Origin: Asterochloris sp. CNOR1 | Taxonomy: Eukaryota; Chlorophyta; Trebouxiophyceae; Trebouxiales; Trebouxiaceae | Assembly: GCA_963969365.1 (NCBI GenBank) | Contig: OZ017755.1 | Span: forward strand, 124,001-188,000 | DNA length: 64,000 nucleotides | Reading direction: 5' to 3' | Part shown: in pieces, positions 23,650 to 47,833 of the stretch | Layout: the number at the start of each line of letters is the position of its first letter | Position numbering within the stretch: the stretch's first letter is position 1 | Made by a program: the position numbers and the translations under genes | Notes under the pieces: generated by a model | What the model was told of the DNA's origin: nothing | The model's input: the letters and a program-made list of their open reading frames with translations, nothing else | Database searches by the model: none

Positions 23650-23815
23650 ACGTACGATTCAACCTGGGTTCCCGTATATTCCCGCATCCCTGGCCGCCCA
23701 TCTGCAGTAAAACCTACGAATTTCGCTGAAGCCGGGCACCTCTCCCATTTGGACTCCCATTGGACTTCGGCAGATATCGTTGGAAATCGTTGGAAGTGAC
23801 CTGCTGGCAGGAGTT
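23650..23815 (+). repeat. Left terminal inverted repeat, 166 bp
   Basis: Starts ACGTACGATTCAACC and ends CTGCTGGCAGGAGTT. I compared it base by base with the complement of 47668-47833 and found no mismatch. Inward of 23815 the two arms stay recognisably similar for another ~28 bp (AGGCAGGTG, CATGA) with substitutions, so the perfect part may have been homogenised. Confidence 0.95.
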
Positions 23816-24021
23816 TGACTGAATTAGGCAGGTGGCATGAGGCCCCCAATCCCGCAGACTTCTGGGGGCTTATTGGGGCCCTGCATGCTTAGGAACGGTT
23901 ACACAGGTATCATGCAAAGATCGTGTCTAGACCTTTATGTTCAAGCAAACATTGGTAAAAAGAGTGAGGCTTACTGATACAAAGAAAAGTTTGGCATGTC
24001 GAAAGCCAGCAGAACACTGAT

Positions 24022-24450
24022 CGAGCCAAGCCAAAACATTAAGGCTGACAGCCACCAGGCACTGAAGCAGTGACATTCAGCCAAGCCATCAAGGCTAGCA
24101 CATACATCAACATAGAGTCAGTAGCAGCTTCTTGAGACATGAAGTGACTGGAGGACTTGCATATGTTCTGCATGAAGTGAGGGCCTTGCATATGTTCTGA
24201 TAGATCAGTAGGGCAGACAGAGGGCACTGAGCCAAGCCATCAGGGCTGGCACACACTTTAACACAGAGACTGCAGCAGTATCTTGTGACATGAAGTGACT
24301 GGGGGACTTGCAAGCGAGGGCCTTGCATGAGTGCTCATAGATCAAGGGCTGTGATAGTGGAAATTGAGCCAAGCCATGAAGGCTATCAGAAACATCAGCA
24401 GAGAGACTTCAGCAGCATCTTGAGACATGAAGTGACTGGGGATTTTTTGG
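24022..24450. repeat. ~140-150-bp imperfect tandem repeat in the left viral arm
   Basis: GCCAAGCCAT.A.GGCT occurs at about 24024, 24080, 24231 and 24368. CTTG(A/T)GACATGAAGTGACTGG occurs at about 24131, 24282 and 24419. Units from 24080 are ~151 and ~137 bp, plus a partial third. No convincing ORF. It lies between the left terminal repeat and the first arm gene. Confidence 0.85.
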
Positions 24451-24475
24451 GCCTGAACAGCAGAGAACAAAGGGC

Positions 24476-25724
24476 TCACAAATATGGAAGCCCAGCACTG
24501 AGTGGAGCAGATGGGATAAAGGTGCTGAAGGACTCCTGAAGTTGCTGCTGAAAGTGCAAGTCTGCCTTGAGGGCCGAATTGTCAGTGATGAGCTTGCACA
24601 CCACTACCTCTGCGTTGCTTCTGTACGCCAGCAGCTGTTTCAAAAGGAGTGCGTTGGTCTCCCGCTTGCTGACCTGGAGCTGCAGGACTTCGGCCCGCAA
24701 CGAAGAGTTCTCGCCCTCCAACCTGTCGACACGAGCCCCCTGGACGGCAGCATCTCTCAGAGGAGCCCCGTCAGCTTGAAGTGGTCTGCAGCGGAAAGTG
24801 CAACAAGTGTAAGTATGCCCTGTCATGCAATGGATTTAAACTCGCCCACCTGCTCGTGTTGGCCTTCATGCTCATCCCATGGTTTGGGTGTGAGATTTGG
24901 AGTGGGTGATGAAGAATATCCCAATGAGATCTGGAATGGGGTGATGGAGAATATCCCAATATTATTATGTCGGCATTTCAGCATGTCCCACACAGAATGC
25001 CTCCTTGACCCCTTACATATCAAACAGCTCAGTCCAGTTGAAAGGCAGCAGCTTGAATGTTGGTGCAGGCCAGAGATTGATGTTCCCCTCCTGATAGCAT
25101 GTGCTCTGCCAGTCAATCAGAACTGAGTGGTTCAGCTGGTCTAACAGGTACATGTGTGCCAAGTTGCTGATGATGCAGATCTTCCCATTGGCAATGTGCT
25201 TGACAACATAAGCTAAGAGGGAACTAAGCTCAATTTTGCCCTTGTACAACTGCTTTTCTGGAAACAGCAAGTGCAACACCATAACAGCTGCCTCAGAAGC
25301 AGCTTCCATGCCTGCTTTGGGCTCCAATGTGTTGTCCTCCATCACAGGAGTTGTGTATACCAAAGTCAGCCACTCTGCAGTGAGCTATGCAATCCAGTCA
25401 GCTGGTGTCTGCAGTGAGCCATGCACTGTACTGTAGCTATCACTGCAGCTTACCAGTGAAGTCCAGCAGGTAGCTCCACTGCAGAGTTGTGTTAGTAATC
25501 TTGTCATCCATCTCATCCACAGCAGCTCTCACAAGTTCCCCCAGGTCTGGAAAAGCTGACTGTGGCACCCTCCATGTCCCTGGGCAGAGCTGTGTGGTTC
25601 TGGGTGTTTTGATGACTCTCTGCAGGTGTTTGCAAGAGAAGCGGAGCTGCACCACGTCGTAGTCCCCCAGGAAGGCCGCTATGCACCGCAGCAACTCCTT
25701 CTGCAGAGCTGTGAGGGATGCCAT
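24476..25724 (-). CDS. Left-arm cargo gene: F-box-like plus coiled-coil protein, three exons, 312 aa
   Basis: Exons 25724-25454, 25374-25017 and 24785-24476 use GTAAGC/CTGCAG and GTAAGG/CTGCAG sites. They total 939 nt, an exact frame of 312 codons plus TGA. Residues 1-36 (TALQKELLRCIAAFLGDYDV, then VQLRFSCKHLQRVI) read as an F-box-like helical motif, which in other proteins docks to Skp1 of SCF ubiquitin ligases. The middle part is unassigned (SYLLDFTGEWLTLVYTTPVM). The last ~100 residues form a leucine-rich coiled coil (RLEGENSSLRAEVLQLQVSK). It lies inside the virus, faces outward toward the terminal repeat, and has spliceosomal introns, unlike every core gene. I read it as captured eukaryotic cargo; function unknown. 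Confidence 0.72.
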
Positions 25725-26052
25725 TCACATCTCATAGCTTCGCTTTGACCAACCTGAAGTCAAAGTCCTTTACAGATTCAGTCCATTTCATGGGCTGCAT
25801 CTTGAAGAATGCGGGAGTCCAACAGGGTTCTCATTTGAATTCCGTGAGGGTTGGCATGGTGGGTTCGCGTTGACCCGTTGAATAATGTAATAATAATGGT
25901 CAACTCTACTCTAGTATTTTGTTATTCGTAGTAATTTGTTATTTGGGTCAACATGAAGGCACATAGAGGCCTCCCTCCTCACTTCCAACACAACCTCTCC
26001 ACAACCTCCAAACAAGGACAAATTCCTGCAACCTCTCTACCTCTACACAAAC
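25725..26052. promoter_or_regulatory. Divergent promoter region between left-arm gene and viral core
   Basis: A 328-bp gap between divergently transcribed starts. It changes from host-like to AT-rich sequence near 25850 and contains an 8-bp inverted repeat, GTTGACCC (25869-25876) and GGGTCAAC (25945-25952), with a third GGTCAAC at 25898, flanking TAATAATAATGG and TTTGTTATT tracts. A pyrimidine-rich leader (CAACCTCTCCACAACCTCC) precedes the ATG at 26053. Confidence 0.45.
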
Positions 26053-26445
26053 ATGTCGGTCTACACTTTGTTCAGGACAAACAGTACGGTAGAGGTGCTC
26101 GAGATCAGTAGAGAGGATCAGAAGTCGAACAGAATCGTCGAATACCTGAGGCAGTTCATTGTCGATCGGTGGCTCGAGATCAATGTTCGATTTAGAATCG
26201 GCAAACAGGCCTGTACCATCTTCATGGCAGACGATGCAGAAGGCAGAAACACCAACTTCTTGGTCAACCAGGCCTTAATCAACTCCGCCACCAAGACCAA
26301 CTACAACAGAAAGTATCTGGACCAATGGGGCACCATCAGCCTCAGGGGTGACATAGTGATCAAGACCACAAAGCCCATAGATCCCAAGTTCCTCAATGTG
26401 CCAGAAGCTATGTTCCCTGACACTGCCTCTGATGAATCTGAGTAA
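26053..26445 (+). CDS. PLV core protein of unknown function, 130 aa
   Basis: First gene of the viral core, ATG 26053 to TAA 26445, with no upstream in-frame ATG after the leader. Mixed alpha/beta composition, start MSVYTLFRTNSTVEVLEISR, acidic tail DTASDESE. It is followed after 77 bp by the 144-aa gene. No domain recognised. The charged core (RWLEINVRFRIGKQACTIF) and acidic tail would suit a DNA- or protein-binding factor, but that is a guess. Confidence 0.7.
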   Translation: MSVYTLFRTNSTVEVLEISREDQKSNRIVEYLRQFIVDRWLEINVRFRIGKQACTIFMADDAEGRNTNFLVNQALINSATKTNYNRKYLDQWGTISLRGDIVIKTTKPIDPKFLNVPEAMFPDTASDESE

Positions 26446-26522
26446 ACCATTATGAAAGTCAACTCTTCACATGTAAATGCTCGTTTTGATATAGACAGAA
26501 TTGAGGGAATCATGTCTATAGG

Positions 26523-26957
26523 ATGCAGAGTGTACCATATGAAGTCCAACAGCTGGTCCTTTCCAAGATGTCTATTGATCGTAGAGTGAGGTTCAAGGTG
26601 CCGCCTAAGAAGCTTGTACTCCCAGACATAAAGCTCAGTAAGCGAGAGCCCTCAGGACTGTATAGAACAACGTATGATTGGTTTACAAGTCAAAAAAGCA
26701 GAAACTGGCCTTTCTACTACAATCATTGGGAATTCTATGCGACATATCGAAAGTTGACATGTCATGCCGAACTACACAAGATGTTCCACCGAAGACGAAA
26801 GATAGCTCACAAGGCCAGGCTCAAGGAGCTGGACAAATGGGTTAATGATCACCGCAATTACAGCCCTGGAGAAATTGACAGAATCAGAGAGAAAGTCCTA
26901 GAGAACATCAAGGAAGAACAGACTGGAATGCCTGAATGGCATGTGAATGACATGTGA
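26523..26957 (+). CDS. Small viral protein with N-terminal F-box-like motif, 144 aa
   Basis: ATG 26523 to TGA 26957. The first ~30 residues (VPYEVQQLVLSKMSIDRRVR, then FKVPPKKL) follow the pattern P-x-E-[VI]-x-x-x-[IV]-L-x-x-[LM]-x-x-D-x-R common to F-box-like leaders of small proteins in algal DNA viruses. The rest is rich in aromatic and basic residues (WPFYYNHWEFYATYRKL) and ends in a charged helix. It converges with the next gene across 108 bp. Role unknown; could be a virion protein or a ubiquitin-system adaptor. Confidence 0.65.
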   Translation: MQSVPYEVQQLVLSKMSIDRRVRFKVPPKKLVLPDIKLSKREPSGLYRTTYDWFTSQKSRNWPFYYNHWEFYATYRKLTCHAELHKMFHRRRKIAHKARLKELDKWVNDHRNYSPGEIDRIREKVLENIKEEQTGMPEWHVNDM

Positions 26958-27065
26958 GAGACTAGTGCTTGCCAAGAGATTCCTCTAACTTATGGCATCG
27001 TCTATGTAATTCGAAGTTCACTAGAGCCTGTGAAGCCAGCAGAGCTATCAGCAACCAAGGCATTA

Positions 27066-27429: not shown

Positions 27430-28674
27430 CTAGTAAGTGTCTTGTGTAGATTTATCTAGGTATCTCACTTTTATCACTGCATTCCAATTCGTGTCTGCTG
27501 TGGCGGCCAACGGGCTGTTATATTCGTCAGTCAGCCACATTCGCATATTTTGTAGTCTGTCGACTCCGAGCTCGAAAGTAAACTCCTCAGCAAGACTTCT
27601 GAATGAAATCAAACTACCATTATCGCAATCCACGGGAATACGCGCAAAAACGTTAGAATGCTTGAAGAATCCTAGATTGGAAATAGTGGTAGAATTGACG
27701 TAGTTGTCAAGAACCTGATTCACATGCCTTGCAGGACAGTCGATATGCAGCACCAAGTTCGATACCTTGGTGAGATTTATCTCCTGGTCGGAGGTGAATA
27801 TGTTTGAGTTCCCATAGACATTCTGACTGAAGCCTAGAAGGGTGTTTGTAGACCTTGCGGTCACATGAGGAGAGTTAAACACGAATTGGACCTCTGGGAA
27901 GGTTTGTGGTGTTCCATCGAAGGTAATGAAATTTGTCACATCATCTCCTGTGATAGTCCATGCAGGATAGACAGTAGAATCTCCTGGCAAACTGCCTCCA
28001 CTGAAAGGAAACTGGTTTTGTAGAGTGGTCGTCATTCTGTCAAAATCATAAAACCCCTGTGGGAGCGTGACTATTGTGGTGCCAAAAACGTTGTCTGCAA
28101 GATTGGTGGTCTCAGCCTGATATTTGGCACTTGGAGTGGGGACGCCATAGGTCTGCTGCTGAAAGCCTAGAGTTTTGCCTAGAGTTGATACAGAGAAGTC
28201 TAGTGTATAAACCTCAGTTGCCGTTGAGCTTGTGTCTGTGATGGAGTAACTGTAATACCCTGGTGAGACCTGACCATATACGACTTGGAAGATGTTTCCA
28301 GTAGGTAATGCGTTTAATAGTGTTTGGATCGTGCCAGCCAGGCTGTTCAAGGTGTAATAACGCCATGGGACCACGATGGTGTATGTCTGAGCACCCACAG
28401 TCCCTATAGTAATGTTGAATGAGTCATTGACTCCTAGCTTGATCTGCGGCCCATAAGTAGGATTAGGTGGCTCTACCACGAACGAGTCGTTAACCGAAGA
28501 AACTACGTCGTAATAACTGTTTCGCTGTACGAAATCTACCAGCTTCAACTGGATAGTCTCGTTTCTCGCAGCTTTAATCAAATCACTGTCAAATTGGAAA
28601 GAACAATCTAGAGATGTCCCTCCCGTTCTATTGGCGGATTGCAAAAAGATGGTTTGATCTCTCTTGATGCTCAT
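27430..28674 (-). CDS. Minor capsid (penton-like) protein, 414 aa
   Basis: ATG 28674 to TAA 27430. Start MSIKRDQTIFLQSANRTGGT, then a beta-rich, Asn/Thr/Ser-rich chain with few lysines, and a C-terminal block (FRSLAEEFTFELGVDRLQNM, NWNAVIKVRYLDKS). This architecture, length and position next to the packaging ATPase and major capsid genes match the penton protein of PLVs and virophages, which carries a jelly-roll N-terminal domain and fills the fivefold vertices. The start codon abuts the stop of the upstream gene with no spacing. Identification is by pattern, not by alignment. Confidence 0.72.
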   Translation of the reverse strand: MSIKRDQTIFLQSANRTGGTSLDCSFQFDSDLIKAARNETIQLKLVDFVQRNSYYDVVSSVNDSFVVEPPNPTYGPQIKLGVNDSFNITIGTVGAQTYTIVVPWRYYTLNSLAGTIQTLLNALPTGNIFQVVYGQVSPGYYSYSITDTSSTATEVYTLDFSVSTLGKTLGFQQQTYGVPTPSAKYQAETTNLADNVFGTTIVTLPQGFYDFDRMTTTLQNQFPFSGGSLPGDSTVYPAWTITGDDVTNFITFDGTPQTFPEVQFVFNSPHVTARSTNTLLGFSQNVYGNSNIFTSDQEINLTKVSNLVLHIDCPARHVNQVLDNYVNSTTISNLGFFKHSNVFARIPVDCDNGSLISFRSLAEEFTFELGVDRLQNMRMWLTDEYNSPLAATADTNWNAVIKVRYLDKSTQDTY

Positions 28675-29358
28675 TTATGTTTCAGCAGACAAAGAAATGG
28701 GAGCGGCTCCCCTAGCATAGGGCAATTCGGGAGCTGTGTCGGATATCTCGATTGCTCCATAGAAATCCTGAGGAGGCAGTTCCTTAGGCTTTGGCAGACT
28801 CTTGCTGTCTATGGGCATCATGGCCTTCAAACGGCGTTTCTCTGAGCCTGTCAAAGGCTTTTTGCTTTCCTCTGGAATGCACCCGGCGGCCCACATTCGG
28901 GCTATCCCTTGTCTGATGGAATCGTGCATTTCTGGTAGGTCCTGTCTGAGTTTAGCTAGCATGTCTTGTGCTTTTTCGGAGTCGAGAAGATCTGTCTGTT
29001 TCTCGGGTCTCTCGGATTCGACCATGAGTTTCTTACATTTCCGGTAGGTTTTTCTATTAGTGTGCTGCACGAACCCCAAGGTGTAGAATACATCTAGCAT
29101 ACCCAGGAGATACGGCTCGTATGAATGCCACCATCTCTGAGACAAGTACTGTCCCAAGAACTGATTCGCAAAGGCTCTCTGTTCCTTCACACTTTGAGTC
29201 TGCAGATGATCGAAAGTGAGCATACATACGTACTCGTGCTCAGCATTCATCTCCTTTTCGCCGTCAAACGCGATAATGGGCTTGTCTAGTTTATGTCTTT
29301 CGACATAATCTAGGACTTTGTTGGAATTTACGTACATCAGCCTGCTAGCTCTAGACAT
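28675..29358 (-). CDS. PLV conserved-type protein of unknown function, 227 aa
   Basis: ATG 29358 overlaps the end of the ATPase gene by 8 bp (ATGTCTAG). Mostly helical and charged: MYVNSNKVLDYVERHKLDKP, an aromatic segment (YLSQRWWHSYEPYLLGMLDV), a basic patch (NRKTYRKCKKL), and a Pro-rich C-terminal third. No protease triad (H..D..C in adenain spacing) is visible, although this is a position where a maturation protease might be expected. Unknown function; linkage suggests packaging or assembly. Confidence 0.65.
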   Translation of the reverse strand: MSRASRLMYVNSNKVLDYVERHKLDKPIIAFDGEKEMNAEHEYVCMLTFDHLQTQSVKEQRAFANQFLGQYLSQRWWHSYEPYLLGMLDVFYTLGFVQHTNRKTYRKCKKLMVESERPEKQTDLLDSEKAQDMLAKLRQDLPEMHDSIRQGIARMWAAGCIPEESKKPLTGSEKRRLKAMMPIDSKSLPKPKELPPQDFYGAIEISDTAPELPYARGAAPISLSAET

Positions 29359-30247
29359 CTTTACTAGAGTGGTTGAGATAAGTAGCGAACGATCTACGAA
29401 CGATGGGTGAATGCTGAGATCTATTGTCGATGTTCAGGAAATCATGGGGATTATCAGTGCTCAAGGCATGGTTGTAGAGCTCTAGGAACTTCTCTCTTGG
29501 CATCCCTACTTCGTCAGCCAGCTCGTCTTCAGCGCCTGATCTGCTTTGCTTCCATATCATCCAGTTGGACGCATTCTCACGAATTCTCTTCGGACATCCG
29601 GACTTCATGGACTGAGCTGCATAATAGGCTATAATCCCCTTATGGCGGTTAAGAATGAGTGTCTGAGCCAGTTTAGAAGCTCCAGTTGAGGTCAGTGCAC
29701 CGCTGCCTTGCAAATCATCTAGAATCAGATGGGTTATAGCAGGCCCATTTGGAAACCTTGGCTTTTCTGGCGGCTGGAAGTCTCTAGCAGCAATATCCAT
29801 CCTTTCTTCTGGGGTTAAAGCCTTGGGTCCATGTTTCATTAGCTTCTTCCATATGCCTTTCTGCTTATGGTAGTCTAGAGTCTTCTCCTTTTCTACCTCG
29901 ATGGAATGCATGATTTGCTCCATGAGGCCATCTGAGTACTCTGTATGTATGTCGTCGGGATCAGCTTTGAGAGCTTCGAAAATGGCTTGGTCATGCACAG
30001 TTGGACTTATAATAATTACTCGTTGATCTCTATTCTTGCCAGTGACAGCATCTCTGATGCCCCTATGCTGATACTGATGAACGGCCTTTACGATAGAATA
30101 CGACTTGCCGCTTCCTCTAGGGCCGATTGCAAGCATTAGTGGAAACATTTTTGCTGCTTCAGGGTCATTTGGAATGGGGTACCTTTTCTTCTTGTGGGGC
30201 ACAGCTGCATCTGTCCAAGTCCTACTCCTTTCTTCAACGATAGGCAT
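29351..30247 (-). CDS. FtsK/HerA-type genome-packaging ATPase (A32-like), 298 aa
   Basis: ATG 30247 to TAG 29351. Walker A is GPRGSGKS (residues 42-49) after the hydrophobic strand MFPLMLAI. Walker B is HLILDDLQG (residues 173-181). A strand ending in Gln (GIIAYYAAQSM) gives the sensor position. Size and motif spacing match the A32-like ATPases that pump DNA into capsids of PLVs, virophages and large DNA viruses. Basic N-terminus (PHKKKRYPIP) and central charged insertion. It sits between the core proteins and the capsid genes, as in many PLVs. Confidence 0.9.
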   Translation of the reverse strand: MPIVEERSRTWTDAAVPHKKKRYPIPNDPEAAKMFPLMLAIGPRGSGKSYSIVKAVHQYQHRGIRDAVTGKNRDQRVIIISPTVHDQAIFEALKADPDDIHTEYSDGLMEQIMHSIEVEKEKTLDYHKQKGIWKKLMKHGPKALTPEERMDIAARDFQPPEKPRFPNGPAITHLILDDLQGSGALTSTGASKLAQTLILNRHKGIIAYYAAQSMKSGCPKRIRENASNWMIWKQSRSGAEDELADEVGMPREKFLELYNHALSTDNPHDFLNIDNRSQHSPIVRRSFATYLNHSSKDV

Positions 30248-30252: not shown

Positions 30253-30729
30253 TTAAGATCGGCCGAAAAGATGGTATGCCAATTGCTCGTGATAATCTTG
30301 TTGAGGCTGAGGAGGTTGCACATATTGCTGGGCTTTTTGCTTAGATTTCTTTGGTGGCGGCTGCTCATATTCACTCTCCGATGAGCTGGATTCTACGATG
30401 ACTTTCTTTGGCTTCTTCACCTTCTTGACATGCTGCTTGGCCTTCTGCATATTCTCGATCTCCGCCTCTAGCTGCTTTACCCGAGCAGCTCGAGAGGCCG
30501 ACTCTATTTCCTTGCGCTTCTTCTCGAGTTCTCGCTCCTTTTTCTTAGTGCCAGTTGCATTCTGTCGTTTGTCTAATGCTGCCTGCCTGGCCACAGCGAG
30601 TTTAGCCAACATCTCGGGTGTCATGGTACGTTTTTTTCTAGCTTTCTGGGGCTGTGGAACTATTTCCTCTTCTGAGCTAGTCTCGACTTCTTCCTGAGTT
30701 TCCTCCAGAATTTGCTTCTTTGAAGGCAT
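30253..30729 (-). CDS. Highly charged Lys/Glu coiled-coil protein, 158 aa
   Basis: ATG 30729 to stop 30253, ending 5 bp from the ATPase start. Acidic N-terminus (EEVETSSEEEIVPQPQ), basic patch KARKKRT, a long charged coil (KKKERELEKKRKEIESASRA), a second basic cluster (KKVKKPKKV), a Ser/Glu acidic run, and Gln/Pro-rich tail. Such proteins typically bind nucleic acid or act as core scaffolds; here the evidence is composition only. Confidence 0.62.
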   Translation of the reverse strand: MPSKKQILEETQEEVETSSEEEIVPQPQKARKKRTMTPEMLAKLAVARQAALDKRQNATGTKKKERELEKKRKEIESASRAARVKQLEAEIENMQKAKQHVKKVKKPKKVIVESSSSESEYEQPPPKKSKQKAQQYVQPPQPQQDYHEQLAYHLFGRS

Positions 30730-31092: not shown

Positions 31093-32517
31093 TTAATAAA
31101 TCACAGAGACGAGCCGGCCACTCTCTATTTGTAAAACTGAACTACATTTAACATAAACCGTCGGTTCCCTGGCCATCCCAGCGTACCCGATGTTACCACC
31201 TGCAGGATTTAGAGCAGAATAAGTCCCGTCACCAACTGTTTCGAAGGTGAAATTTGCATTTGTATTGCGACACGAATACCCAGCTATCAATCGACTCTCA
31301 GGGTCACTCGAAGGAGCCAACATGACGGGAGCAATCCAGTGCCCCTGGGAGAAGCGGTCTAGAGTTTTACAAAACGGCGTGAGAGTCCCCATCTGGTCAT
31401 GTGCGAGCCCCATTGCCTGACTTGCAAACCAAAATGCACGCGAATTAGAGACCGGCCATTGAGGGATTTGGGTCCCATTAACCCCGAACACCCATGTCTT
31501 CACCCCATAGCCATTTCGCTGGAATACGTCTACTGTACCAGTGCTAGCTCCAGACACTGTGGTTAAGGCTTGATTCTCGTTATAATGCCCAAGAGTAGAC
31601 TTAGGACTCGCATTACGGAAAGAACCAATAAGAAGGTCTACCGAGTCGCTATTGAGAGTGAATCGAGTTTGCTGTGTTGGGGTTTGATTACTAGGTACTA
31701 TTGGTCCAGGGAATGAACTCCAGTTGTCGAACTTCCTCCGAATAGCTCTCCCTGGCGCACCGTTCAGATAGCTTGCCTGAGAGGCGAAATACTCAGCCGG
31801 AAGAATGATCGTATCGCAGGTCACATAGATGTTCGAAAGCTGGTAAGTTTGGCCCGCGGCATTCTGAGCGATGAGAATTTCGGGGCCAGCGCAAGTTAGA
31901 CTGATCTTGAGATCACCGACAGCATCCACATCCAATAATTCTGAAGAATTTAGGAAACCCAGCCAATTCCACATGGAAATATCTGTGTTAGACATGACAT
32001 ATGGCGCTGTCATCGCGTTAGTACCGCTCTGCAGCACATAGATCTCCTTGTCGATCGCAGGAATTGCACTTCCGGCTACGCCAGTTGTTGCAGCGGTCCC
32101 TTGCGGGGTACCGGCATTGAATCTACCGAGGTTGAGAACAGATCTGTCAATCGCCGAGGCGCCCATGGTATAGTCCTGCAGGACATTCCAGATGTGATTG
32201 TAGTTTCTAACCTCTGCTAGCTGCTGTCCGTTGGCTGAAACAGCGACTGAACTAAATAATGATTCCACCCCTTGTGGGGGAAGCACACAGGAGTAAGATT
32301 GCGTATTATCTACAGTTGTCCCAGAAGTAGTGAACTGACAATGCATAGCGATAGAACTAGGGTCAAGTAACTGACCAGGAGGCAGTGAGAGAGTGATTAC
32401 AGAATAAGGCCCGGCGGTCTGCTGATTTTGAGGGAAAAGACGAACGGTTTGCTTGGAGAAGCCGGAAAGTCTGTGGATGAAAGACTGCATCGCAGAGCTG
32501 TAGAAGTTTTGGGACAT
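31093..32517 (-). CDS. Major capsid protein, double jelly-roll PLV type, 474 aa
   Basis: ATG 32517 to TAA 31093. N-terminus MSQNFYSSAMQSFIHRLSGF; overall beta-rich with many Ser/Thr/Asn/Gln and few charged residues. Landmarks: QGVESLFSSVAVSANGQQL and NYNHIWNVLQDYTMGASA (helix between strands), NTDISMWNWLGFLNSSELLD near the end of the first jelly roll, RAFWFASQAMGLAHDQMGT in the second, and a hydrophobic end (SVLQIESGRLVSVIY). The ~470-residue size, the SLF..v..NG..l element and neighbourhood fit the capsomer protein of Polinton-like viruses. Trimers would tile a T-number icosahedron. Called by pattern and context. Confidence 0.8.
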   Translation of the reverse strand: MSQNFYSSAMQSFIHRLSGFSKQTVRLFPQNQQTAGPYSVITLSLPPGQLLDPSSIAMHCQFTTSGTTVDNTQSYSCVLPPQGVESLFSSVAVSANGQQLAEVRNYNHIWNVLQDYTMGASAIDRSVLNLGRFNAGTPQGTAATTGVAGSAIPAIDKEIYVLQSGTNAMTAPYVMSNTDISMWNWLGFLNSSELLDVDAVGDLKISLTCAGPEILIAQNAAGQTYQLSNIYVTCDTIILPAEYFASQASYLNGAPGRAIRRKFDNWSSFPGPIVPSNQTPTQQTRFTLNSDSVDLLIGSFRNASPKSTLGHYNENQALTTVSGASTGTVDVFQRNGYGVKTWVFGVNGTQIPQWPVSNSRAFWFASQAMGLAHDQMGTLTPFCKTLDRFSQGHWIAPVMLAPSSDPESRLIAGYSCRNTNANFTFETVGDGTYSALNPAGGNIGYAGMAREPTVYVKCSSVLQIESGRLVSVIY

Positions 32518-39300: not shown

Positions 39301-39348
39301 GCCTCTGCCCCTGAGTCCTGCCCTGAAAGCAGCCCTGTATCAGCGTGA
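36307..39348 (+). CDS. Tail-spike-like fibre with S74 intramolecular chaperone domain, 1013 aa
   Basis: ATG 36307 to TGA 39348. N-terminal anchor (NVGKFTLTAKGLFLGTNLLI) shared with the preceding fibre. Five repeats of the type VGINTKTPQYSLDVAG occur near residues 71, 563, 644, 730 and 820, as in phage fibre stalks. Residues ~370-548 resemble an F5/8 type C (discoidin) carbohydrate-binding fold (PKSIVWAGSNDGVNF..WTPT..NYRIICTSTAM). The C-terminal ~112 residues are a peptidase S74 chaperone: LSDVRKKKNVRDARKYLDSL with Ser902-Asp903, then LGFIAQEVEGVMPGLV. S74 domains trimerise the fibre and cut themselves off at that Ser. Likely the host-attachment protein. Confidence 0.88.
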   Translation: MSYRSDFNYNSSQNSADFDRLNVGKFTLTAKGLFLGTNLLIDANGNLTGKVVSGFANALPNQLPNVSQNGLFTGVRQTNPQATLDVSGTANILGSITCASTISAIGGSITTLRCSTLTANNVNAGTYNQSLSIQSSGVVTIGSISTAFVPSLQLQSSAGGRSGIGFGTYSTNPGWVLNTNRGGSNPGTNLTDFYLYNYATGQTPLQISADTNNVTINSSTLTCNTISAGSYLGLNPTFVGSGSSLLLQNASGTHLTLINPTGGGTVSFADIDFAGYSSPAFTNGAPMSIRFWDDYAYSGIMSLRAKAAGSPSNAQSEILRVTQNGISSVGTQTNAFTLINSPGGGGGAIYADSNNVLNICQYGTQVVTNPQTPTSNTAYNNYGTWTALSSSTGGTIAQAYQAVNGSVSTTAWSCAANYSSSTGAYQGTVSTVVSGSNVTGEWWGLNTTTPFYPRSVYTDFFSSNYTPKSIVWAGSNDGVNFTNLATATLPGSLTYSDWTPTSTSTATTAYSNYRIICTSTAMAGLAAPAYCRNFGMWSVILSGLPVSLVNPPLNSVIAVTNNSVGINTKTPQYSLDVAGTSRVVNQSAGVGGTFLALASTAANRILFVDETSNGGTVGASMRLYSGYTSQISSQGNLALMPGYGNLGISNTSPAYPLDVAGQGRFVSNGANQVIVLNTSTSNSTDACEVKFDRTAGLSTAVSAVGVGASTRGAYWWVNGNDRININASGQVGVNTSSPGYTLDVNGNFHCNYAYIGGGSLSSLFNFSQSGQNGLTWGPNTNSKIVDDGDLRIATDDNMHFYTGCNNSTYGTERMTIANGNVGINNTNPSYTLDVSGGIRGSTSGGFFNWGGSGYHQWYRSDSSSGDGLCDYYSDVGGVQTNIARISCGGSWSNKTGSYNTLSDVRKKKNVRDARKYLDSLCRLRVRKYSWDDEEGTEPSQLGFIAQEVEGVMPGLVETSEWGDLKDFKSLKTTILIPMLVSAVQTLAERLTALEGGQAASAPESCPESSPVSA

Positions 39349-39394
39349 AAACCACATAAAGAATGGCCTGGACTTGTCATTCATACCTCCAACA

Positions 39395-39640: not shown

Positions 39641-39681
39641 AGCGTTTCGATCTCACAATAATATAATCTCCAAACAATAAC

Positions 39682-39945: not shown

Positions 39946-40028
39946 ACACTAAGTACTTTATATTGTTTGCGTCTAAAACCATATAAAGATTCTCTCCATA
40001 CATAATAGCAACTTCTCTCCCTTACCAT
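39946..40028 (+). promoter_or_regulatory. Promoter-like leader of the replication gene
   Basis: 83-bp AT-rich gap with CATATAAAGATT at 39980-39991, a TATA-like element 48 bp upstream of the ATG at 40029, followed by a pyrimidine-rich stretch (CTTCTCTCCCTTACC). Confidence 0.5.
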
Positions 40029-43000
40029 ATGCCTAAGTTTACAAAGAAAGAGATTGAAAAACAATTGAAGAAGGAATCTATCGCCAAGCTTCCTGTCTCA
40101 ACCTTAGAAGATATTTACGGGGTTCCGAACGGATACGAATTCGTCAGGTCGAACGGAAGGGTCCAACTAGAAAAGACAATCGTAACCCACAGTCCTTTGA
40201 GGAAAACGCCAAAGGCCCTCAAGAAGATGGATGACAACTATGCCAAGACGAACACCAAGGCTGTCTCCGCTCTAGTCAAGTCGGTCTTCCAGAAGGTGCT
40301 CAGAGAAGCCCAGGATGCAGAAGAACGAGATTTTGAGAAACTTCGAAAGACCCAACAGGTCTCCTGCAATGTGGCCCTCTACAAGGAGAATATCAGAGAA
40401 GACCAAACACAGTACGGCCCTGTCCATGTCATAGATGGCGTTCCATGCAGAGAATCTCATTGGAACATTACTGCCGTCATCCCTAAGAGTTGGTATACCA
40501 CAGACTACGTCCTCTTCGACTCTACTCGGTACCGTGATATGAAGCTCTATCGACCTGCATTCGCAGCTGCCATGCGAAACTACGAATACGAGCTGATCGC
40601 CATCAAACTCTCTAATCCTGTAGAGATGGGGCCCAATGAGTTCGAGCCCTCTACCCAACCCGTGGGCTACGAAAGGAGCAATGCTGCCCTCAACAACAAG
40701 CTGGTGAGAAGGCCTGTTGTGAAAGGTGCATCCTATGCTGAGATCTCTGGAGGTGTCAAGAGTTTCGTTTGGGATATCATAAAGCGTAGACCAGATTGCT
40801 GTCTATACGATGTGATCGTAGAGCATCTATCGGAGCATCTGGGCCATAAAAAGGCTCATTCAACAGAGCTCATCAACCGATCCCTTCAGAACCTCGGACA
40901 GAAATGGGACTCACAGAGGAGGTACGAGGACTACATCGATTATGAGGCTTTAGATGAATTCCCAGGGGTGTGCAGTCTAGAGTCTATGCGGAATGTCTTC
41001 GAGACTCTAAGGCTACCTGTCATCGCATTTAACACTATCAGCCAGCCGGTCTTCCAACATCATGTCAAGTCTCGCAAGGAGGATAAACTCCCCATCCTCA
41101 TCCTATTCCAACAGGACGGTCATGTGCGAAGGGTCACCAGATCCCACCAATCCATCTTCCAAAAGTTGGTTGTTAAAGGGGAAGATCAGCTCTACACATC
41201 TCGTACTCAACCCATTCATTCTGTGCCTGTGAGCGATAGATGGTCTTTCGTCAGAACCCGCCCAACAGATGCACCCCGATTCGTGTACGGCAAAGACGAT
41301 GTCTTCGCTATCCTTTTAGAGATAGAGCAATCCAAGGAGTATACGAGGCACGTAGCCTGGACTTTAAAGAACAATGCCTTCAACATTTTCGAAGAGATGC
41401 TACCCTACCACCATGCGGAGGTGATGGACAAGCAGTTTCTATCAATCAAATTCGTATACGAGCAGGGTACTCTAGTCATTAAATCTCTTGGAGTCGAAGA
41501 TGACACTAATAAAGACATACCCACTGAGACGGCCTTCCAAGCCTATCAGATTCAATCTCATGAGTTCAACTCTGCTATATTCCAACCAAAACACATTTCA
41601 TTCTACAAGGACATCATCCAGGATCTCATCACCCACACCAAACAACCCCTCACTCGATCACTCATCGTCAATGGCAGTATGGTAGAAGCGGTTGGTGTGG
41701 ATGTGGTGAAACACTACACATCTGCTCTCATGATGCTGGAGAAGATCCCTGTGCGGAATGCCTTAGACAGCTGGACCAGGTACCACTCGTGTGACGGAAT
41801 TCAGGACTACAATCTCTACTACGTGGAGTCCCAAATTCAGGCAAATATCCTCTACTTCGACAAACGATATACTATATGCTTTGGGATGGCTCTCAAACAG
41901 TTTCCTAGCGATACCTTCAAAATCATCGAAGTCCTAAGGCCTAGCCTCTTGATTCCAAACCCGTTGCTCAAGCTCATCAAGGATACCTACGAGAACCCCG
42001 AGCTGACCATGCAGATGGTGAAGGATATCATAAATCATTCTATCGGAATCTGCGGGAAGATCTACAATTCCACCCTCAGGACCCAAATGTTTCTAAACGA
42101 AGACGAAGCCGTGTACTATGCAGACCTGATGGAGGCTGTCCCTCACAAATACGAGAAAAAGGCCAATGGTAAGGACATATATTTTGTCACACAGAGCAAT
42201 CAATGCCAGCTCGTGGAGGGCTTCTATCTGCTCAGATTCGCTATCTTGGACATTGCTCGAGCAAATATGCAGATCTTGGTGAATCAGGCAGAAAATGCCG
42301 GAATGCAAGCAGCCTACATTGCTACAGATAGAGTAGATTTCGTCACAAACGGTTTAGATCCTGCTGAAGTGTTTCGAGACAAAATGGCAGCTCCCAAAAC
42401 TCAGAGCCCAAAGGAGGAATTTCGGCAGATCGGCAAATTACGGCTAGAATCAAAGAAGAGGCGGGCGACCACCGTACACGAATTCATGACAAACCAACGG
42501 GTAACTTTCGCAACTCTCGACCGTCCGGTACACGAGATTAGAGATAACCTATCAGAGGTAACCACAAGACATCCTGGTGATCCCTTTTGCGGCTTAGAAG
42601 AACTGTTTTTCGATGAGTATGATAAGGATGCGGTGGCAGATCAGTTAGAGAAGTATCGCCACCAAGGTGGCACCATGGTGAAGGCCTCTAACCCAGGGGT
42701 CGGCAAGACACAGGCAGCAGTTCACTTGCTGAAAAGAATGATCGCTGCTGGCCAGAAAGTCGCGGTGTCCCTCCCTATACATAGACTCAGGACAGAGCTA
42801 GTGGAGATGGGTCTACCTGAAGAATGCATCATGACTTTCTGGGAGCTGTTTGGCGTGGACGGGTGCGGTAGAGACAAAAGGTGTGGCAGCAAGTTCGATC
42901 AGTACGATCATGTCCATTTCGAAGAGGTATTCATGGCCAGCATGGCCTTCGTCAGTAGAATTCACAGAGATTCGTGTAGTTTTCCCCATGTCTCTATCTC

Positions 43001-44075
43001 AGCAACCGGAGATCCCTTCCAGACGAAAGCAGTCCTAGACGTTTTCACGGAGTATGGTAATCATGGGGGATCCGCAGACGTAGAGAGAGAGATGCGTATT
43101 CGTAGGCTGGATGTGGTGTTCCCAAACCAGTTCGAACTGAGGATACCCAAGCGTTATTCTAAGGAAGACGTAGAGATTCTGGAAAAGGTGAAGCTAGATC
43201 TTTTTCAGCCATCTGACAACCATGCCGATCAATGCAAATCTGTGGCCTCTAAATATTTCACAAAAATTGCGAACCCGCTCACTACCGGCCAGATCGAGAT
43301 GCTTAGAGAATCTATGGTCGTGGCCCAACATCTCGTCACCATCAACCTCATCAACCATCGTCTAGCCACCCACAATAAGAAGGGCGAATTCCGATTGGTG
43401 GTAGGAGACAAGCTCAAGGTGAAACACAGGGATCCTGCACATCAATTACAGAAGGACGATCTATATCGAGTCCAGAAGATCATCAAGGGGTCTAAAAGGA
43501 ATGCGGTCAGGCTCGTGAACGAGTTCGGCCGTGAAATAGAGGTCCTCGGCACACACAAGGAGGTGTTGGAGAAATTCCCATACGCCTTTTGCATGTCTAT
43601 CAATTCGGCTCAAGGTCTGAGCTCCAAGCCAGGCCAGGACACCTTCGTATTCGACGTCGGAAGCCCTTTCATGTGCAAGGAGAACTTTTGGGTAGGATTC
43701 ACTCGAGCTAGACAATTGGGAAACGTTAGGTTTGTGGCAGATGAAGGGACGGTCATCAAAGATTTCAAAAAGCAGATTCGAACCAGAGTTGAGGGCCATG
43801 GTCCCACCAAGTTCGCTCCTCGAGTAGAGAAAACGGCTGTGGCAGAGGCAGTGGCGGTAAGGCTCAAAAAATACAATTTCTGCTGCCCTGGAATCAGAGA
43901 TAGCCCATGTGGAACCCCGCTGATAGATGAGAAGACCATGGAGCTCAGATGCCACTTCGACAGAGATTGCGCAGATCTAGCCTTGACCCCGGAAAATGCC
44001 ATCCCAAGATGTGAAGATTGCAACAGAGCCAAGTCATCCTCTGATCATTTGAGGGACCCTATTATAGATGACTGA
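40029..44075 (+). CDS. Replication fusion protein: divergent PolB-like palm, SF1 helicase and HNH-like zinc module, 1348 aa
   Basis: ATG 40029 to TGA 44075. Residues ~310-780 resemble a family-B polymerase of the protein-primed/plasmid type. Motif A-like is GVDVVKHYTSAL (Asp558). Motif B-like is KDIINHSIGICGK (665-677). Motif C-like is YIATDRVD (763-770), where the usual D-T-D reads A-T-D. No exonuclease D-x-E motif was found. Residues ~880-1245 are a superfamily-1 Pif1/RecD-like helicase: Walker A NPGVGKT (888-894), motif II HFEE (963-966), motif III SATGDPFQ (991-998), motif V NSAQG, motif VI FTRAR. Residues 1285-1340 have Cys pairs and the HNH-like end TPENAIPRCEDCNRAKSS. It should drive viral genome replication. 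The next gene overlaps it by 8 bp. Confidence 0.82.
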   Translation: MPKFTKKEIEKQLKKESIAKLPVSTLEDIYGVPNGYEFVRSNGRVQLEKTIVTHSPLRKTPKALKKMDDNYAKTNTKAVSALVKSVFQKVLREAQDAEERDFEKLRKTQQVSCNVALYKENIREDQTQYGPVHVIDGVPCRESHWNITAVIPKSWYTTDYVLFDSTRYRDMKLYRPAFAAAMRNYEYELIAIKLSNPVEMGPNEFEPSTQPVGYERSNAALNNKLVRRPVVKGASYAEISGGVKSFVWDIIKRRPDCCLYDVIVEHLSEHLGHKKAHSTELINRSLQNLGQKWDSQRRYEDYIDYEALDEFPGVCSLESMRNVFETLRLPVIAFNTISQPVFQHHVKSRKEDKLPILILFQQDGHVRRVTRSHQSIFQKLVVKGEDQLYTSRTQPIHSVPVSDRWSFVRTRPTDAPRFVYGKDDVFAILLEIEQSKEYTRHVAWTLKNNAFNIFEEMLPYHHAEVMDKQFLSIKFVYEQGTLVIKSLGVEDDTNKDIPTETAFQAYQIQSHEFNSAIFQPKHISFYKDIIQDLITHTKQPLTRSLIVNGSMVEAVGVDVVKHYTSALMMLEKIPVRNALDSWTRYHSCDGIQDYNLYYVESQIQANILYFDKRYTICFGMALKQFPSDTFKIIEVLRPSLLIPNPLLKLIKDTYENPELTMQMVKDIINHSIGICGKIYNSTLRTQMFLNEDEAVYYADLMEAVPHKYEKKANGKDIYFVTQSNQCQLVEGFYLLRFAILDIARANMQILVNQAENAGMQAAYIATDRVDFVTNGLDPAEVFRDKMAAPKTQSPKEEFRQIGKLRLESKKRRATTVHEFMTNQRVTFATLDRPVHEIRDNLSEVTTRHPGDPFCGLEELFFDEYDKDAVADQLEKYRHQGGTMVKASNPGVGKTQAAVHLLKRMIAAGQKVAVSLPIHRLRTELVEMGLPEECIMTFWELFGVDGCGRDKRCGSKFDQYDHVHFEEVFMASMAFVSRIHRDSCSFPHVSISATGDPFQTKAVLDVFTEYGNHGGSADVEREMRIRRLDVVFPNQFELRIPKRYSKEDVEILEKVKLDLFQPSDNHADQCKSVASKYFTKIANPLTTGQIEMLRESMVVAQHLVTINLINHRLATHNKKGEFRLVVGDKLKVKHRDPAHQLQKDDLYRVQKIIKGSKRNAVRLVNEFGREIEVLGTHKEVLEKFPYAFCMSINSAQGLSSKPGQDTFVFDVGSPFMCKENFWVGFTRARQLGNVRFVADEGTVIKDFKKQIRTRVEGHGPTKFAPRVEKTAVAEAVAVRLKKYNFCCPGIRDSPCGTPLIDEKTMELRCHFDRDCADLALTPENAIPRCEDCNRAKSSSDHLRDPIIDD

Positions 44076-45252
44076 AAAGGCAACCGTCCCCGGTTTGCCC
44101 AACCCATTGGATCTGATAAGTAAAGCTAGACTTGTAAAAAAGTTGAAAGAGGCTGGTGTTGCCAATCCTAAGAAACAGGCTGAGAATGCTCTAAAAGATT
44201 ATGAAGTTAATCAGATCAGAAAGCCAATCAAAGTGACTAGAGATAGGTACTTTAAAATAGTGGGGCAGATAGGCAGCTATCAGGCAGACATAGCATTCCT
44301 TCCTCAATACCGGGTAGAAAACGGCGGAAAGACTGCTTTTCTGCTTTTAGTAGAAGTGCCCACTAGACTAGCATATGCTCTACCGCTGAAGAACTCCACA
44401 GGCGCAGCGATCTCTAAAGCTCTTCAAACACTTGCTAGCAAAGTAAAGAATCCCATCATAAGTCTAACAGGAGATGATCAGTTCAATCAGCAGAAGATCC
44501 AAGACTTTTTGAAGGACAAAAAGATAGAGCTCTACACTGGAATAGCAAAAGATGACCACATAACCAAATTCGGCGATCGTTTGGGCATCGTGGATTCCGC
44601 CGTAAAGAACATCAAGACCCTTATATCCAAATACATAGATCATACGGATAGACTAGACTGGACCTCTTATCTACCTTCTATCATGCACGTCTACAACGAT
44701 TCACCTCATTCCACTCTAGACTCTACGCCGGATGAGATCTCTAACTCCGAAGCCTTAGACAATCAGGTGAGCAAAGTCCAGGCCAACAATGCGCTCTATC
44801 AGAGCCAGCGTGTGAAGCTGGGTGATGTGGTTAGGATCACTGTACCCAAGGAGACCTTCTCTAAGCAGTCTACTACCTTCTCTAAGTCTACCTACATCGT
44901 GGATAGCAGGGATGGGTACAGCTGGAAGCTGAGAGACTCTAGCAATCATGTGCTGAGAAGGAGATTCAAGGACTATGAGCTGCAGATTGTGAACACAGCC
45001 ACACTCAAGAAGGCCATAGAGACGCCTAAGAAGGACAAAGCACTGGCTGTGCATGCACAGGCTCAGAAGCTGATCAGAGGTGCCGGCTTGACGACCAAGG
45101 AAGCATTCCAGCAGGCAGCCAAGGGCCAAGAGAGACAGGCAGAGACTGTGAGCGGCAACAGGAAGAGCGGCAGAACAACTAGAGAAGTCGGCAGCTACTC
45201 TAAGGCTGCTGAAGGTAGAAAGAAGGGAGTCGTAGTGCGCCAGGTAGGCTAG
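44068..45252 (+). CDS. Retrovirus-like (rve) integrase, Polinton type, 394 aa
   Basis: ATG 44068 (ATGACTGA overlap with the replication gene stop) to TAG 45252. RNase H-fold core: YQADIAFLP (Asp74), LLLVEVPTRLAYALPLKNST, SLTGDDQFNQQKIQDFL (Asp136/137), and GIVDSAVKNIKTLI, where Asp176 stands at the usual catalytic Glu position. A Pro-Ser-Leu helix (LDWTSYLPSIMHVYNDSPHS) and SH3-like C-terminal domain (YIVDSRDGYSWKLRDSS, RRRFKDYELQIV) follow, as in Polinton and retroelement integrases. The N-terminal zinc-binding HHCC is not seen. The Lys/Arg-rich tail probably binds DNA. It would insert the virus using the terminal repeats and make the 6-bp duplication. Confidence 0.88.
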   Translation: MTEKATVPGLPNPLDLISKARLVKKLKEAGVANPKKQAENALKDYEVNQIRKPIKVTRDRYFKIVGQIGSYQADIAFLPQYRVENGGKTAFLLLVEVPTRLAYALPLKNSTGAAISKALQTLASKVKNPIISLTGDDQFNQQKIQDFLKDKKIELYTGIAKDDHITKFGDRLGIVDSAVKNIKTLISKYIDHTDRLDWTSYLPSIMHVYNDSPHSTLDSTPDEISNSEALDNQVSKVQANNALYQSQRVKLGDVVRITVPKETFSKQSTTFSKSTYIVDSRDGYSWKLRDSSNHVLRRRFKDYELQIVNTATLKKAIETPKKDKALAVHAQAQKLIRGAGLTTKEAFQQAAKGQERQAETVSGNRKSGRTTREVGSYSKAAEGRKKGVVVRQVG

Positions 45253-45319
45253 AGCTGACATAACATAGGTCAAGGTATATTGGAATATTCTCCTTCACTC
45301 AACCCTTATCACTCGCACC
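45253..45319 (+). promoter_or_regulatory. Leader of the right-arm gene
   Basis: 67-bp gap after the integrase stop with AGGTCAAGG, an AT-rich GTATATTGGAATATTC and pyrimidine-rich TCCTTCACTCAACCC just before ATG 45320. GGTCAA recalls the GGGTCAAC element at the other core-arm boundary. Confidence 0.35.
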
Positions 45320-47504
45320 ATGGCTCTCACCGCTCTGCAGAAGGCCATCGTTGAGTGGCTGTATGTATGCGCTCAAATGCCTGCTGGCACGATCAAACGG
45401 CGTGGGGTGGAGCAGCCTAATGACTGGCGGCCTCTCAACGAGGCCAGCCATGACAGCAGCTGTGCCTATCCACTGGGCGCTTACTTTAAAGCCTGTAGGC
45501 GCCTGGACCACAGGCAGCTTAGGCCCCATGCCAAGACAGGCCTCGCTGCTGCAAGCTTCCAGGCCATGCTCGCAGTGGCGAAGACCCCTCAGATCACACG
45601 CAGTCAAGCACAGGATGCAGCATTCACAGCCACGATCCGCCTGCTGTTCAATGCTGGCATCCTGACCAGCACAGAATCCACTGACGAGCTGCACGATCAC
45701 CACAACCCCAACCTCTCACATGGTGTTAAGTGGCCAACTGGTGTGCCAACCACTACCATCAAGTGTTTCCCTCTGCTCAGGTGTGCAGCTGTACACATGA
45801 GATTTCTTCTTGACTTATAGCACTCATTCTAAGGGGTTGTACTCTGTTGCAGGATCTGGTGTGAGAAGCAGAAGGCTGACACAAGCAGGATCTATGTGAT
45901 ACAGCCTGCTGACTATCAGAGGAGGAGGAGGCAGGTTGGTGGCTGCAGTCACTCATGCTGCAGCTTGCATCTGCTGGATCCAACAAACACAGCATGTCTG
46001 CAGGGTGGTGGTGGTGCTGCTGCTGCTGCTGCTGCTGCTGTGCCAGTCTTGGAGTCAGACAGTGAGGCAGGGTCAGACAGTCAGGCAGCAGCAGACAGTG
46101 AGGCAGAGCCAGAGCAGCAGGAGGAGGATGCCATTGAGCTTGATGGCACACCTCCTCCTGAGGCTGCTGCTGGTGCTCCTCAGGCTGCTGCTGCTGGTGC
46201 TGCTCAGGCTGCTGCTGCTGCTGAGGGGCCTTATATGGCCATCTGGGATCTCAAGGTAAGCTGCCTCTGCTGCTTTGTTGTGCTGCACTGGACTCTGCTG
46301 ACATTCCAATCCTGCTGCTGCAGTGCTGTGGCTGCTACAAACCTTTCAAAGAGGTTGAGCAGCCAGGGGGTACTGTTCCCACCTGGCATGCCTGTGTCTC
46401 TGGCCTTGACTGTCATCATGATGGTGGGCCAGCTCTCTTCTGCTATCATTGCCACCAACACTTGAGAACAGAGGTGCAGGTGGCAGAGCATGAGCTTGTC
46501 AGATACTTTGAGTGTGACAGATGCTGGGTAAGTGCCATGCTTTCTGTCAGTGATCCAGCCTGCATGATCTCATGCTGATGCCTGCTGTATCCTGCAGGAA
46601 CTGAGGCTCCTCAAGGTCTACATCACCTTGGCACTGCAGTGGGTGGAGCAGCTCAAGCACAGCCTGCACAACCCACCACCAACAGGGGTCCCAGAACAGC
46701 ATCTGGGGGATGGCTACATGATACTGGCCTCAGTCTGGTTGGCATCTGGCATGAGGTGGCAGCTGCCCTTTGAACTTCCTGGGAAAATCATCACACAGGC
46801 CATCTCCAACCCAGTGGATGTCACTGCATATATGGCTGTCAAGGTATGTTGTCTGCTGTTGCCTGCTGCTTGCCCACACAATGTGTTATGCTGATGTGTT
46901 TTATGCTGCAGGATGTTCCTTATCAGCCACCTACAGAGGAACCAAGCAGTTTACCTTTGGCTGCTCTTCCTCCCACACCTGGTGGTGCTGCTGCTGCTGC
47001 TGAGGGGCCTGCTGGTGCTGCTGATGAGCCTGCTGATGGGCACACTGAGTCCTCTTCTCATGAGGAATCAGAGTCTGATGATGGGAGTGCTCCTAAGCCT
47101 GCTGTAGGGCCTGCTGAGCAGCTGGCTCAGACCCATGCTAGGATCATTGGAGAGCAGCTTCAGCCCCCTCCTGTGGTCATGGAGCAGCCTGCTCCTCAGG
47201 CTGCTGTTGCTGATGGGGAACCTCCTGTTGACACATCTGATGAGCCTACCAAGGTGAAGTGCAGACTGCATGTGCTACAAACCTACATAGCACATGCTAA
47301 CTCTCATTTTAACTGCAGGACAATGAGAGACAGTCTCCTGAACCTACACTGACCAAAATAAACCCACTCAGTGGAGCAGACAGGAGAATCAGAGAGCAAG
47401 CCAAAAAGAGGAAACAGGCTGCTAAGACTCTAGCAGAAAAGGAAGCAGCTGCTCAGGATGAAACAGCTAACAGGCAGCTTGCCAAGAGAATCAAGCCCAT
47501 CTAA
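45320..47504 (+). CDS. Right-arm cargo gene: Ala-rich protein with Cys/His zinc-type cluster, seven exons, 590 aa
   Basis: Exons 45320-45780, 45853-45934, 46004-46255, 46324-46527, 46598-46843, 46912-47253 and 47319-47504 all use GT..TGCAG introns of 65-72 bp. Their sum, 1773 nt, is an exact open frame with TAA. Exon 1 encodes an alpha-helical region (TALQKAIVEWLYVCAQMPAG). Exons 2-3 have basic RRRRQ, then Gly/Ala runs from GCT repeats and acidic stretches. Exon 4 has a dense metal-site pattern (CCGCYK, WHACVSGLDCHH, CYHCHQHL, FECDRCW), PHD- or RING-like in spacing. Exon 6 is Ala/Pro/Glu-rich and exon 7 a basic coil ending KRIKPI. It lies inside the virus beside the terminal repeat and faces outward. 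Function unknown; nuclear regulator is a guess. Confidence 0.75.
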
Positions 47505-47667
47505 CTCTGCATGCTTGTCCTTGTACATCAGTGTACACTAACATTCATGCTCATTCTTTTCCCCTTGTGGTTGCTTGAGCCTGAAGCCCCAATTTCAATC
47601 TGATTGGCATTCATTGAATGAAAGTGAGTGGGATGTGGGTTGTCATGGCACCTGCCTGATCCTGTCT
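47505..47667. other. Right-arm tail between cargo gene and terminal repeat
   Basis: 163 bp with no ORF; probably the 3' UTR of the cargo gene. Its last ~28 bp (CATGGCACCTGCCTGATCC) are imperfectly complementary to sequence just inside the left repeat. Confidence 0.6.
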
Positions 47668-47833
47668 AACTCCTGCCAGCAGGTCACTTCCAACGATTTC
47701 CAACGATATCTGCCGAAGTCCAATGGGAGTCCAAATGGGAGAGGTGCCCGGCTTCAGCGAAATTCGTAGGTTTTACTGCAGATGGGCGGCCAGGGATGCG
47801 GGAATATACGGGAACCCAGGTTGAATCGTACGT
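47668..47833 (-). repeat. Right terminal inverted repeat, 166 bp
   Basis: Exact reverse complement of 23650-23815. It ends GGTTGAATCGTACGT at the host junction. Confidence 0.95.

Follow-up and report, generated by a model that had tools for sequence, protein, structure and literature searches.

What occupies positions 23650-47833 of the 64,000-nt window studied here, and why do its ends recur elsewhere in the same genome? The window is a stretch of Asterochloris sp. CNOR1 DNA, C10:124001-188000 of a 56.4-Mb genome in 21 contigs (C numbers denote contigs; coordinates without one refer to the window). The 24.2-kb element itself is one more polinton-like virus (PLV) of known type. The evidence supports a recently inserted, integrated PLV with a gene set resembling that of the Tlr elements of Tetrahymena. 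Other elements of this genome share the PLV ends and are flanked by 6-bp duplications, and no viral genes were found in them. We infer that the integrase of the PLV is their mover. On balance, it is probable that the PLV was inserted by its own rve-type integrase and that the non-viral elements are satellites mobilised in trans by the integrase of this PLV or of a close relative. In protists, PLVs are known as proviruses and possibly as antiviral agents. Should their integrase drive a non-viral family as well, their effect on host genomes goes well beyond the PLV insertions and extends to the transport of host genes.

Boundaries of the integrated element

The PLV is bordered by terminal inverted repeats of 166 bp which start with ACGTACGATTC and have 0 mismatches. 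Chance does not account for this pair (BLAST E 6.5e-92), and according to the rule of three, 0 differences in 166 bp limit the divergence of the arms to roughly 1.8% at most. Further inward, the similarity of the arms fades across approximately 50 bp, a 218-bp pair being 94% alike. Both flanks carry the hexamer GTGCAC. Since GTGCAC is its own reverse complement, taken alone it could equally be six more bases of the inverted repeat. We interpret it as a target duplication since other elements ending in the same motif have non-palindromic 6-bp duplications at this position. A preliminary description of the locus, made from the sequence alone, had reported repeats without mismatch, a flanking hexamer and open core genes, and had suggested a recent insertion into a green-algal chromosome. 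These points were confirmed or, for the recent insertion and the green alga, supported: the reading frames of 414, 227, 298, 158, 474, 507, 725, 1013, 1348 and 394 amino acids (aa) are open, the identical arms and the duplicated hexamer argue for a recent insertion, and pieces of a RuBisCO small-subunit gene lie on C1 (three matched, two of the three over the curated cut-off). A nuclear copy of this gene with introns fits a green alga.

Non-viral elements with PLV ends

Stretches of 126-179 bp matching the end of the window PLV were found elsewhere in the genome at 17 sites (E 1.7e-26 or better). Fourteen of these ends pair as seven elements (Table 1), three are single. A pattern search added a more distant subgroup of ends on C3 (a 2.4-kb element), C13 and C15. 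When 14 window proteins were compared by tblastn with 19 stretches, matches were restricted to two of the three stretches belonging to a second PLV (see below), and the 16 non-viral stretches gave none. Pfam analysis of 86 open reading frames (ORFs) from nine non-viral stretches, scanned from stop to stop without gene models, detected reverse transcriptase (two) as well as endonuclease/exonuclease and trypsin-type families (one each), and no transposase or integrase.

The inverted arms of these elements are 0.35-3.6 kb long. They are 99-100% identical in both C6 elements and in those on C12, C10 and C14, which supports recent activity of these five, 98-99% identical in the C7 element and 92% in the C17 element. 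The largest element (C6big; stretches L013-L017) has identical ends of 353 bp, a GAGATC duplication and pieces of long interspersed nuclear elements (LINEs). LINE copies that are about 99% identical are located inside several elements (L017, L023-L024, L027, L028, L046, L047). A site-specific insertion of the LINE was considered, but the five junctions compared differ, and no fixed target sequence is apparent. Nesting of the PLV within a foldback element was dismissed, as the similarity ends at about 216 bp on both sides.

Target duplications and conservation of the ends

At eight of ten paired elements, both PLVs included, exact 6-bp duplications lie directly outside the end A[CG]GTA[CG]G. 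The duplications of the C7 and C10 elements match at five of six positions, that of C10 becoming exact if shifted by one base. Counting the non-viral elements only, six of eight possess exact duplications and two of eight match at 5 of 6, while an exact hexamer match at a given position has a probability of 1 in 4096 by chance. The single ends C17:110894, C17:1430511, C5:336880, C13:427700 and C15:146868 were left out of this comparison, as were C10:623646/630662 and C14:148066, whose outer ends were not reached. ACGTACG is the start of both PLVs and of the non-viral elements on C17 and C3, the other end of the C3 element showing one change. No further CGTACG is present inside the PLV.

An alignment of the PLV end and ten non-viral ends (one end per element, without the more distant C3, C13 and C15 ends) revealed conservation of at least 80% at 111 of 164 sites. 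The conserved sites form blocks, with 50 runs versus 72.7 in shuffled alignments (P 5e-5) and a longest run of 23 versus 11.0 (P 0.003). Over the 164 columns, the ends of C6big and C12 are 79-80% identical to the PLV, those of C6s, C14 and C7 76-77%. C6big and C12 have a common end module of approximately 350-370 bp, of which the similarity to the PLV reaches about 212 bp, and in its inner arms C6big is about 88-91% similar to the C6s, C14 and C7 elements.

The integrase

The 394-aa integrase of the window PLV gave no Pfam match. Four relatives of it were detected, and the relative P0010 matched PF00665 with an E value of 1.3e-3, which is below the cut-off. A profile built from six integrase sequences matched the Ty3 integrase in the PDB (0.0045), whereby D176 aligned with the Glu of the S-E-R-T stretch, which we take to be the catalytic Glu of Ty3. 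D74, D136 and D176 are invariant in all six sequences. In the structure model (mean predicted local distance difference test score, pLDDT, 65.3), D74 belongs to strand 70-77, strand 132-135 adjoins D136, and D176 is situated near the start of helix 174-193; the core blocks have a mean pLDDT of 72-90, except for residues 161-170 with 44. Profile and model thus predict an rve (retroviral) core arrangement with Asp in place of the third catalytic Glu. According to the accessible part of PMC12220804, rve integrases typically leave 6-bp duplications.

Capsid, packaging and replication genes

Three profile libraries (Pfam, NCBIfam and PHROGs) were used, and 20 ORFs were scanned with Pfam. For the 474-aa protein, eight relatives besides itself (51-86% identity) were detected in a set of 5.8 billion proteins, some of them encoded on public contigs 0.7-2.8 Mb long. 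AlphaFold2 gave a poor model of the protein (mean pLDDT 40.0, predicted template modelling score 0.36). Nevertheless, a Foldseek comparison of the model with the PDB yielded 75 matches at E <= 0.001, and all 50 matches listed are capsids or scaffolds of viruses whose fold class we take to be the double jelly-roll, the virophages Sputnik (5.5e-6) and mavirus (1.3e-5) coming first; the TM-scores are low, at about 0.2-0.35. With the quality of the model as a reservation, these matches are good evidence for a PLV-type double-jelly-roll capsid. A PDB sequence search with the capsid profile gave no match. The sole match of the single-sequence search, a fimbrial protein (E 0.0084), was taken as chance. 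In IMG/VR, no relative was found with the capsid protein or with alignments of the capsid, integrase and replication protein.

The 414-aa protein may be the penton, as suggested by its place in the gene order and by its weak similarity to a protein of the second PLV (14 versus 16 proteins compared). The preliminary description had named the lack of PLV or virophage matches by the capsid and penton profiles as one outcome speaking against its assignment, and indeed neither protein matched a capsid or penton family in the three libraries; the capsid was recovered by fold comparison only. Its polinton-like provirus is supported by the capsid fold and the rve core. A putative genome-packaging ATPase is present: the 298-aa protein, 38% identical to its counterpart in the second PLV, matched a PHROG of terminase large subunits, and its best Pfam match, thymidine kinase (3.6e-4), is a P-loop match. 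These matches do not tell the A32 and FtsK subtypes apart. For an adenovirus-like cysteine protease, there was no Pfam match in the 20 ORFs, a scan that also missed the capsid. The term 'complete' of the preliminary description is borne out in part only, as no protease was recognised, no family matched the candidate penton and the first Asp of polymerase motif C seems to be missing.

Two relatives of the 1348-aa replication protein, at about 80%, were found. Family matches remained below the cut-off (AAA_19 0.014 here; AAA_30 0.0011 and HNH 0.0035 in the second PLV), no Pfam family of protein-primed polymerase B (PolB) matched, and PDB searches with the single sequence and with a profile gave no match. 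The protein contains what are presumably helicase motifs of superfamily 1 (SF1) type and polymerase motifs, of which motifs A and B align between both PLVs. At the position of motif C, ATD instead of DTD was seen by eye in the window PLV and both relatives (3/3); the second PLV is without this motif. The first Asp of motif C thus seems to be absent from the polymerase-like part, and the protein looks similar to the Tlr-type fusion, in which a truncated polymerase is joined to an SF1 helicase. Owing to the degraded motif C and the Tlr-like fusion, the PLV is probably not self-synthesising.

The left end zone contains an F-box gene with a GTAAG donor between its exons. Two related copies exist on C13 (77-79%) and a shorter match on C15 (85%, 216 bp), so that it probably represents host DNA captured together with an intron, which is presumably spliced.

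The second PLV

A second, divergent PLV is located at C6:1550076-1571115. It has terminal repeats of 567 bp with 0 mismatches and the target duplication TTTGTT. Identity to the window PLV is 29% for the capsid, 38% for the ATPase and 38% for the integrase, and genome-wide searches detected capsid and integrase genes of this type in the two PLVs only (two each). The order of its genes is polymerase, integrase, small genes, penton, ATPase, capsid and fibres, whereas the window PLV starts with the small genes, followed by penton, ATPase, capsid, fibres, polymerase and integrase. A circular permutation and a move of the two-gene block explain this difference equally well. The 567-bp repeat has no other copy in the genome and shares with the window PLV end the first nine bases, one 9-base word and little more.

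Proposed movement of the non-viral elements

If the non-viral elements are moved in trans, the integrase of the PLV or of a close relative would bind the conserved end blocks and attach the ACGTACG termini to the target in a reaction with a 6-bp stagger. The same reaction would act on non-viral elements possessing the common end (up to about 216 bp). Their long identical arms could result from fold-back replication or from arm-to-arm conversion. A wider version, in which the PLV integrase serves in trans, across the whole genome, a family of non-viral foldback elements (including one of 48.5 kb with other transposons inside) that are satellites of the virus, is put forward tentatively and is rather less than an even prospect. 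If it is true, satellites could be replicated with the virus or packaged, carrying host DNA between cells, and non-viral arms could change to a different helper virus through an exchange of end modules.

A number of observations weigh against movement by a PLV integrase. The PLV is present in a single copy, the non-viral elements in several, and their ends are at most about 85% alike to the PLV over 150-220 bp (86-93% in shorter stretches). The arms of the C7 and C17 elements indicate that not all of these elements look recent. The duplication test was not blind, since flanks were viewed before the end positions were fixed, though the same motif position was applied to all ten elements. Allowing up to two mismatches, the end pattern gave 24 matches and a control pattern 11, so that matches with two mismatches mean little, and the block shuffle ignores the relatedness of the ends. 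A divergent or spliced transposase could escape a stop-to-stop scan with Pfam, which missed the PLV capsid as well, and by eye, an ORF of C6big without a Pfam match (L016:3071-3838) looks similar to a tnp2-type transposase. Finally, the outer ends of C6big and C6s are 77% alike and their inner arms about 91%; the ends have thus been exchanged or change faster than the arms. In these alignments the ends appear to behave as exchangeable modules.

This modularity also suits an unrecognised host DNA transposon that owns the ends, from which the PLV acquired them by recombination, the non-viral elements then being unrelated to the PLV integrase. The end zones of the PLV are nearer to the host in GC content, and one of them holds the host-type F-box gene with its intron. 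The repeat of the second PLV, with its small overlap and lack of genomic copies, and the opposite position of polymerase and integrase in that virus point in the same direction. On the other hand, no transposase was detected among the ORFs scanned, and the 6-bp duplications and the ACGTACG terminus, which are present in both PLVs, fit rve integrases. A host transposon is considered unlikely, albeit a serious candidate. The common ends could also indicate that the non-viral elements are internally deleted PLVs. However, their arms are about 70-98% alike among each other and none is similar to the PLV beyond about 216 bp, no trace of a viral protein was found in the 16 stretches, and no element with PLV gene remnants beside foldback arms was seen, which makes this origin improbable. 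Slightly less credence still is given to an ordinary autonomous, virion-forming provirus and nothing further: open core ORFs and identical repeats would be expected of it, but a catalytic Asp is apparently missing from the polymerase-like part of the PLV and of its two relatives, and the shared ends would be left unexplained. An assembly artefact is hardly conceivable in view of the duplications at independent elements and of close relatives (80-86%) on other public contigs.

Relation to known elements

As far as the available portions of PMC4028283 and PMC12721341 go, the Tlr elements of Tetrahymena encode an rve integrase, an ATPase, capsid, penton and an SF1 helicase with a truncated polymerase in place of an active protein-primed PolB, and no protease. 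The window PLV agrees with them in the integrase, the packaging ATPase, capsid and penton (here a candidate), apparently in the helicase/truncated polymerase (here presumed from motifs), and in the lack of a recognised protease. It differs in its green-algal host, an HNH-like instead of a GIY-YIG region, the S74 fibre and the ends shared with non-viral elements. PLVs integrated in chlorophytes, as covered by the accessible sections of PMC10120064, are similar in size (15-30 kb), capsid, an rve integrase in some, terminal repeats and a GC content that may differ from the host; in contrast to the present genome, those sections describe no satellite family with common ends. Polintons/Mavericks have an rve integrase and capsid genes (PMC4028283, in part) and 6-bp duplications, like rve PLVs (PMC12220804, in part), in common with the window PLV, in which neither an active protein-primed PolB nor an adenovirus-type protease was recognised.

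Transpovirons are likewise linear, end in terminal repeats and are associated with a virus, but they encode their own helicase fusion, whereas none was found here. They are named in the available portion of PMC12721341. In Pack-MULEs, judging from the excerpt of PMC6431247, host DNA likewise lies between terminal repeats and the enzyme is provided in trans by another element, whereas the presumed source of the enzyme here is a capsid-encoding virus. Among the matches listed in the open-licence literature, there was no earlier description of non-viral elements that have their ends in common with a PLV. It is this satellite-like family that sets the system apart from PLVs already known. The system also lends itself to testing: the PLV is present once, its ends recur on several elements and the 6-bp signatures can be measured.

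Further features of the window

Table 1. Features of the window PLV and non-viral elements with paired PLV-like ends
Feature	Position	Strand	Basis or remark
Left hexamer GTGCAC, target duplication	23644..23649		flank sequence
Left terminal inverted repeat, 166 bp	23650..23815	+	identical to right arm
Left end zone, GC 0.497	23816..26052		repeats at 24074-24449
F-box gene, at least 2 exons (25443-25724, 25016-25384)	25016..25724	-	PF00646 E 2e-4, over cut-off
130-aa ORF, no assignment	26053..26445	+	open frame
144-aa ORF, F-box-like N-terminus by eye only	26523..26957	+	no family match
414-aa candidate penton	27430..28674	-	phmmer 2.8e-8 to second-PLV counterpart
227-aa protein, no assignment	28675..29358	-	weak counterpart in second PLV
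298-aa putative packaging ATPase (P-loop, terminase-like)	29351..30247	-	PHROG terminase large subunit 7.6e-5
158-aa lysine-rich protein	30253..30729	-	open frame
474-aa predicted major capsid protein, double jelly-roll	31093..32517	-	homologs P0002-P0009; fold search, poor model
507-aa protein, no assignment	32561..34084	-	open frame
725-aa repetitive, fibre-like protein	34108..36285	+	by eye
1013-aa fibre, C-terminal Peptidase_S74 chaperone domain	36307..39348	+	PF13884 1.5e-11
1348-aa replication protein: polymerase-like part, SF1-like helicase, HNH-like C-terminus	40029..44075	+	presumed motifs
394-aa predicted rve-type integrase, D74-D136-D176	44068..45252	+	profile and model
Right end zone, GC 0.537, low-complexity repeats	45253..47667		composition, repeats
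Right terminal inverted repeat, 166 bp	47668..47833	-	identical to left arm
Right hexamer GTGCAC	47834..47839		flank sequence
Non-viral element C6big	C6:2348770-2397292		48.5 kb; paired PLV-like ends
Non-viral element	C12		10 kb; paired PLV-like ends
Non-viral element	C10		5.8 kb; paired PLV-like ends
Non-viral element C6s	C6:504708-512345		7.6 kb; paired PLV-like ends
Non-viral element	C14		7.6 kb; paired PLV-like ends
Non-viral element	C7		13 kb; paired PLV-like ends
Non-viral element	C17		8.6 kb; paired PLV-like ends

The gene core of the PLV has a GC content of 0.474 and both host flanks of 0.58. Between the fibre and polymerase genes (39349-40028), no old end was discernible by eye. Only repeat stretches of up to 60 bases in the right end zone match elsewhere in the genome. 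The positional counterpart of the 144-aa ORF in the second PLV matches F-box below the cut-off. The repeats of the left end zone, just inside the left end, are three stretches related to one another, each at least about 88 bp long and spaced 137-151 bp apart, and are possibly binding or origin repeats. In the right host flank, a repeat array with a spacing of 42 bp lies within a long open frame (51344-51615).

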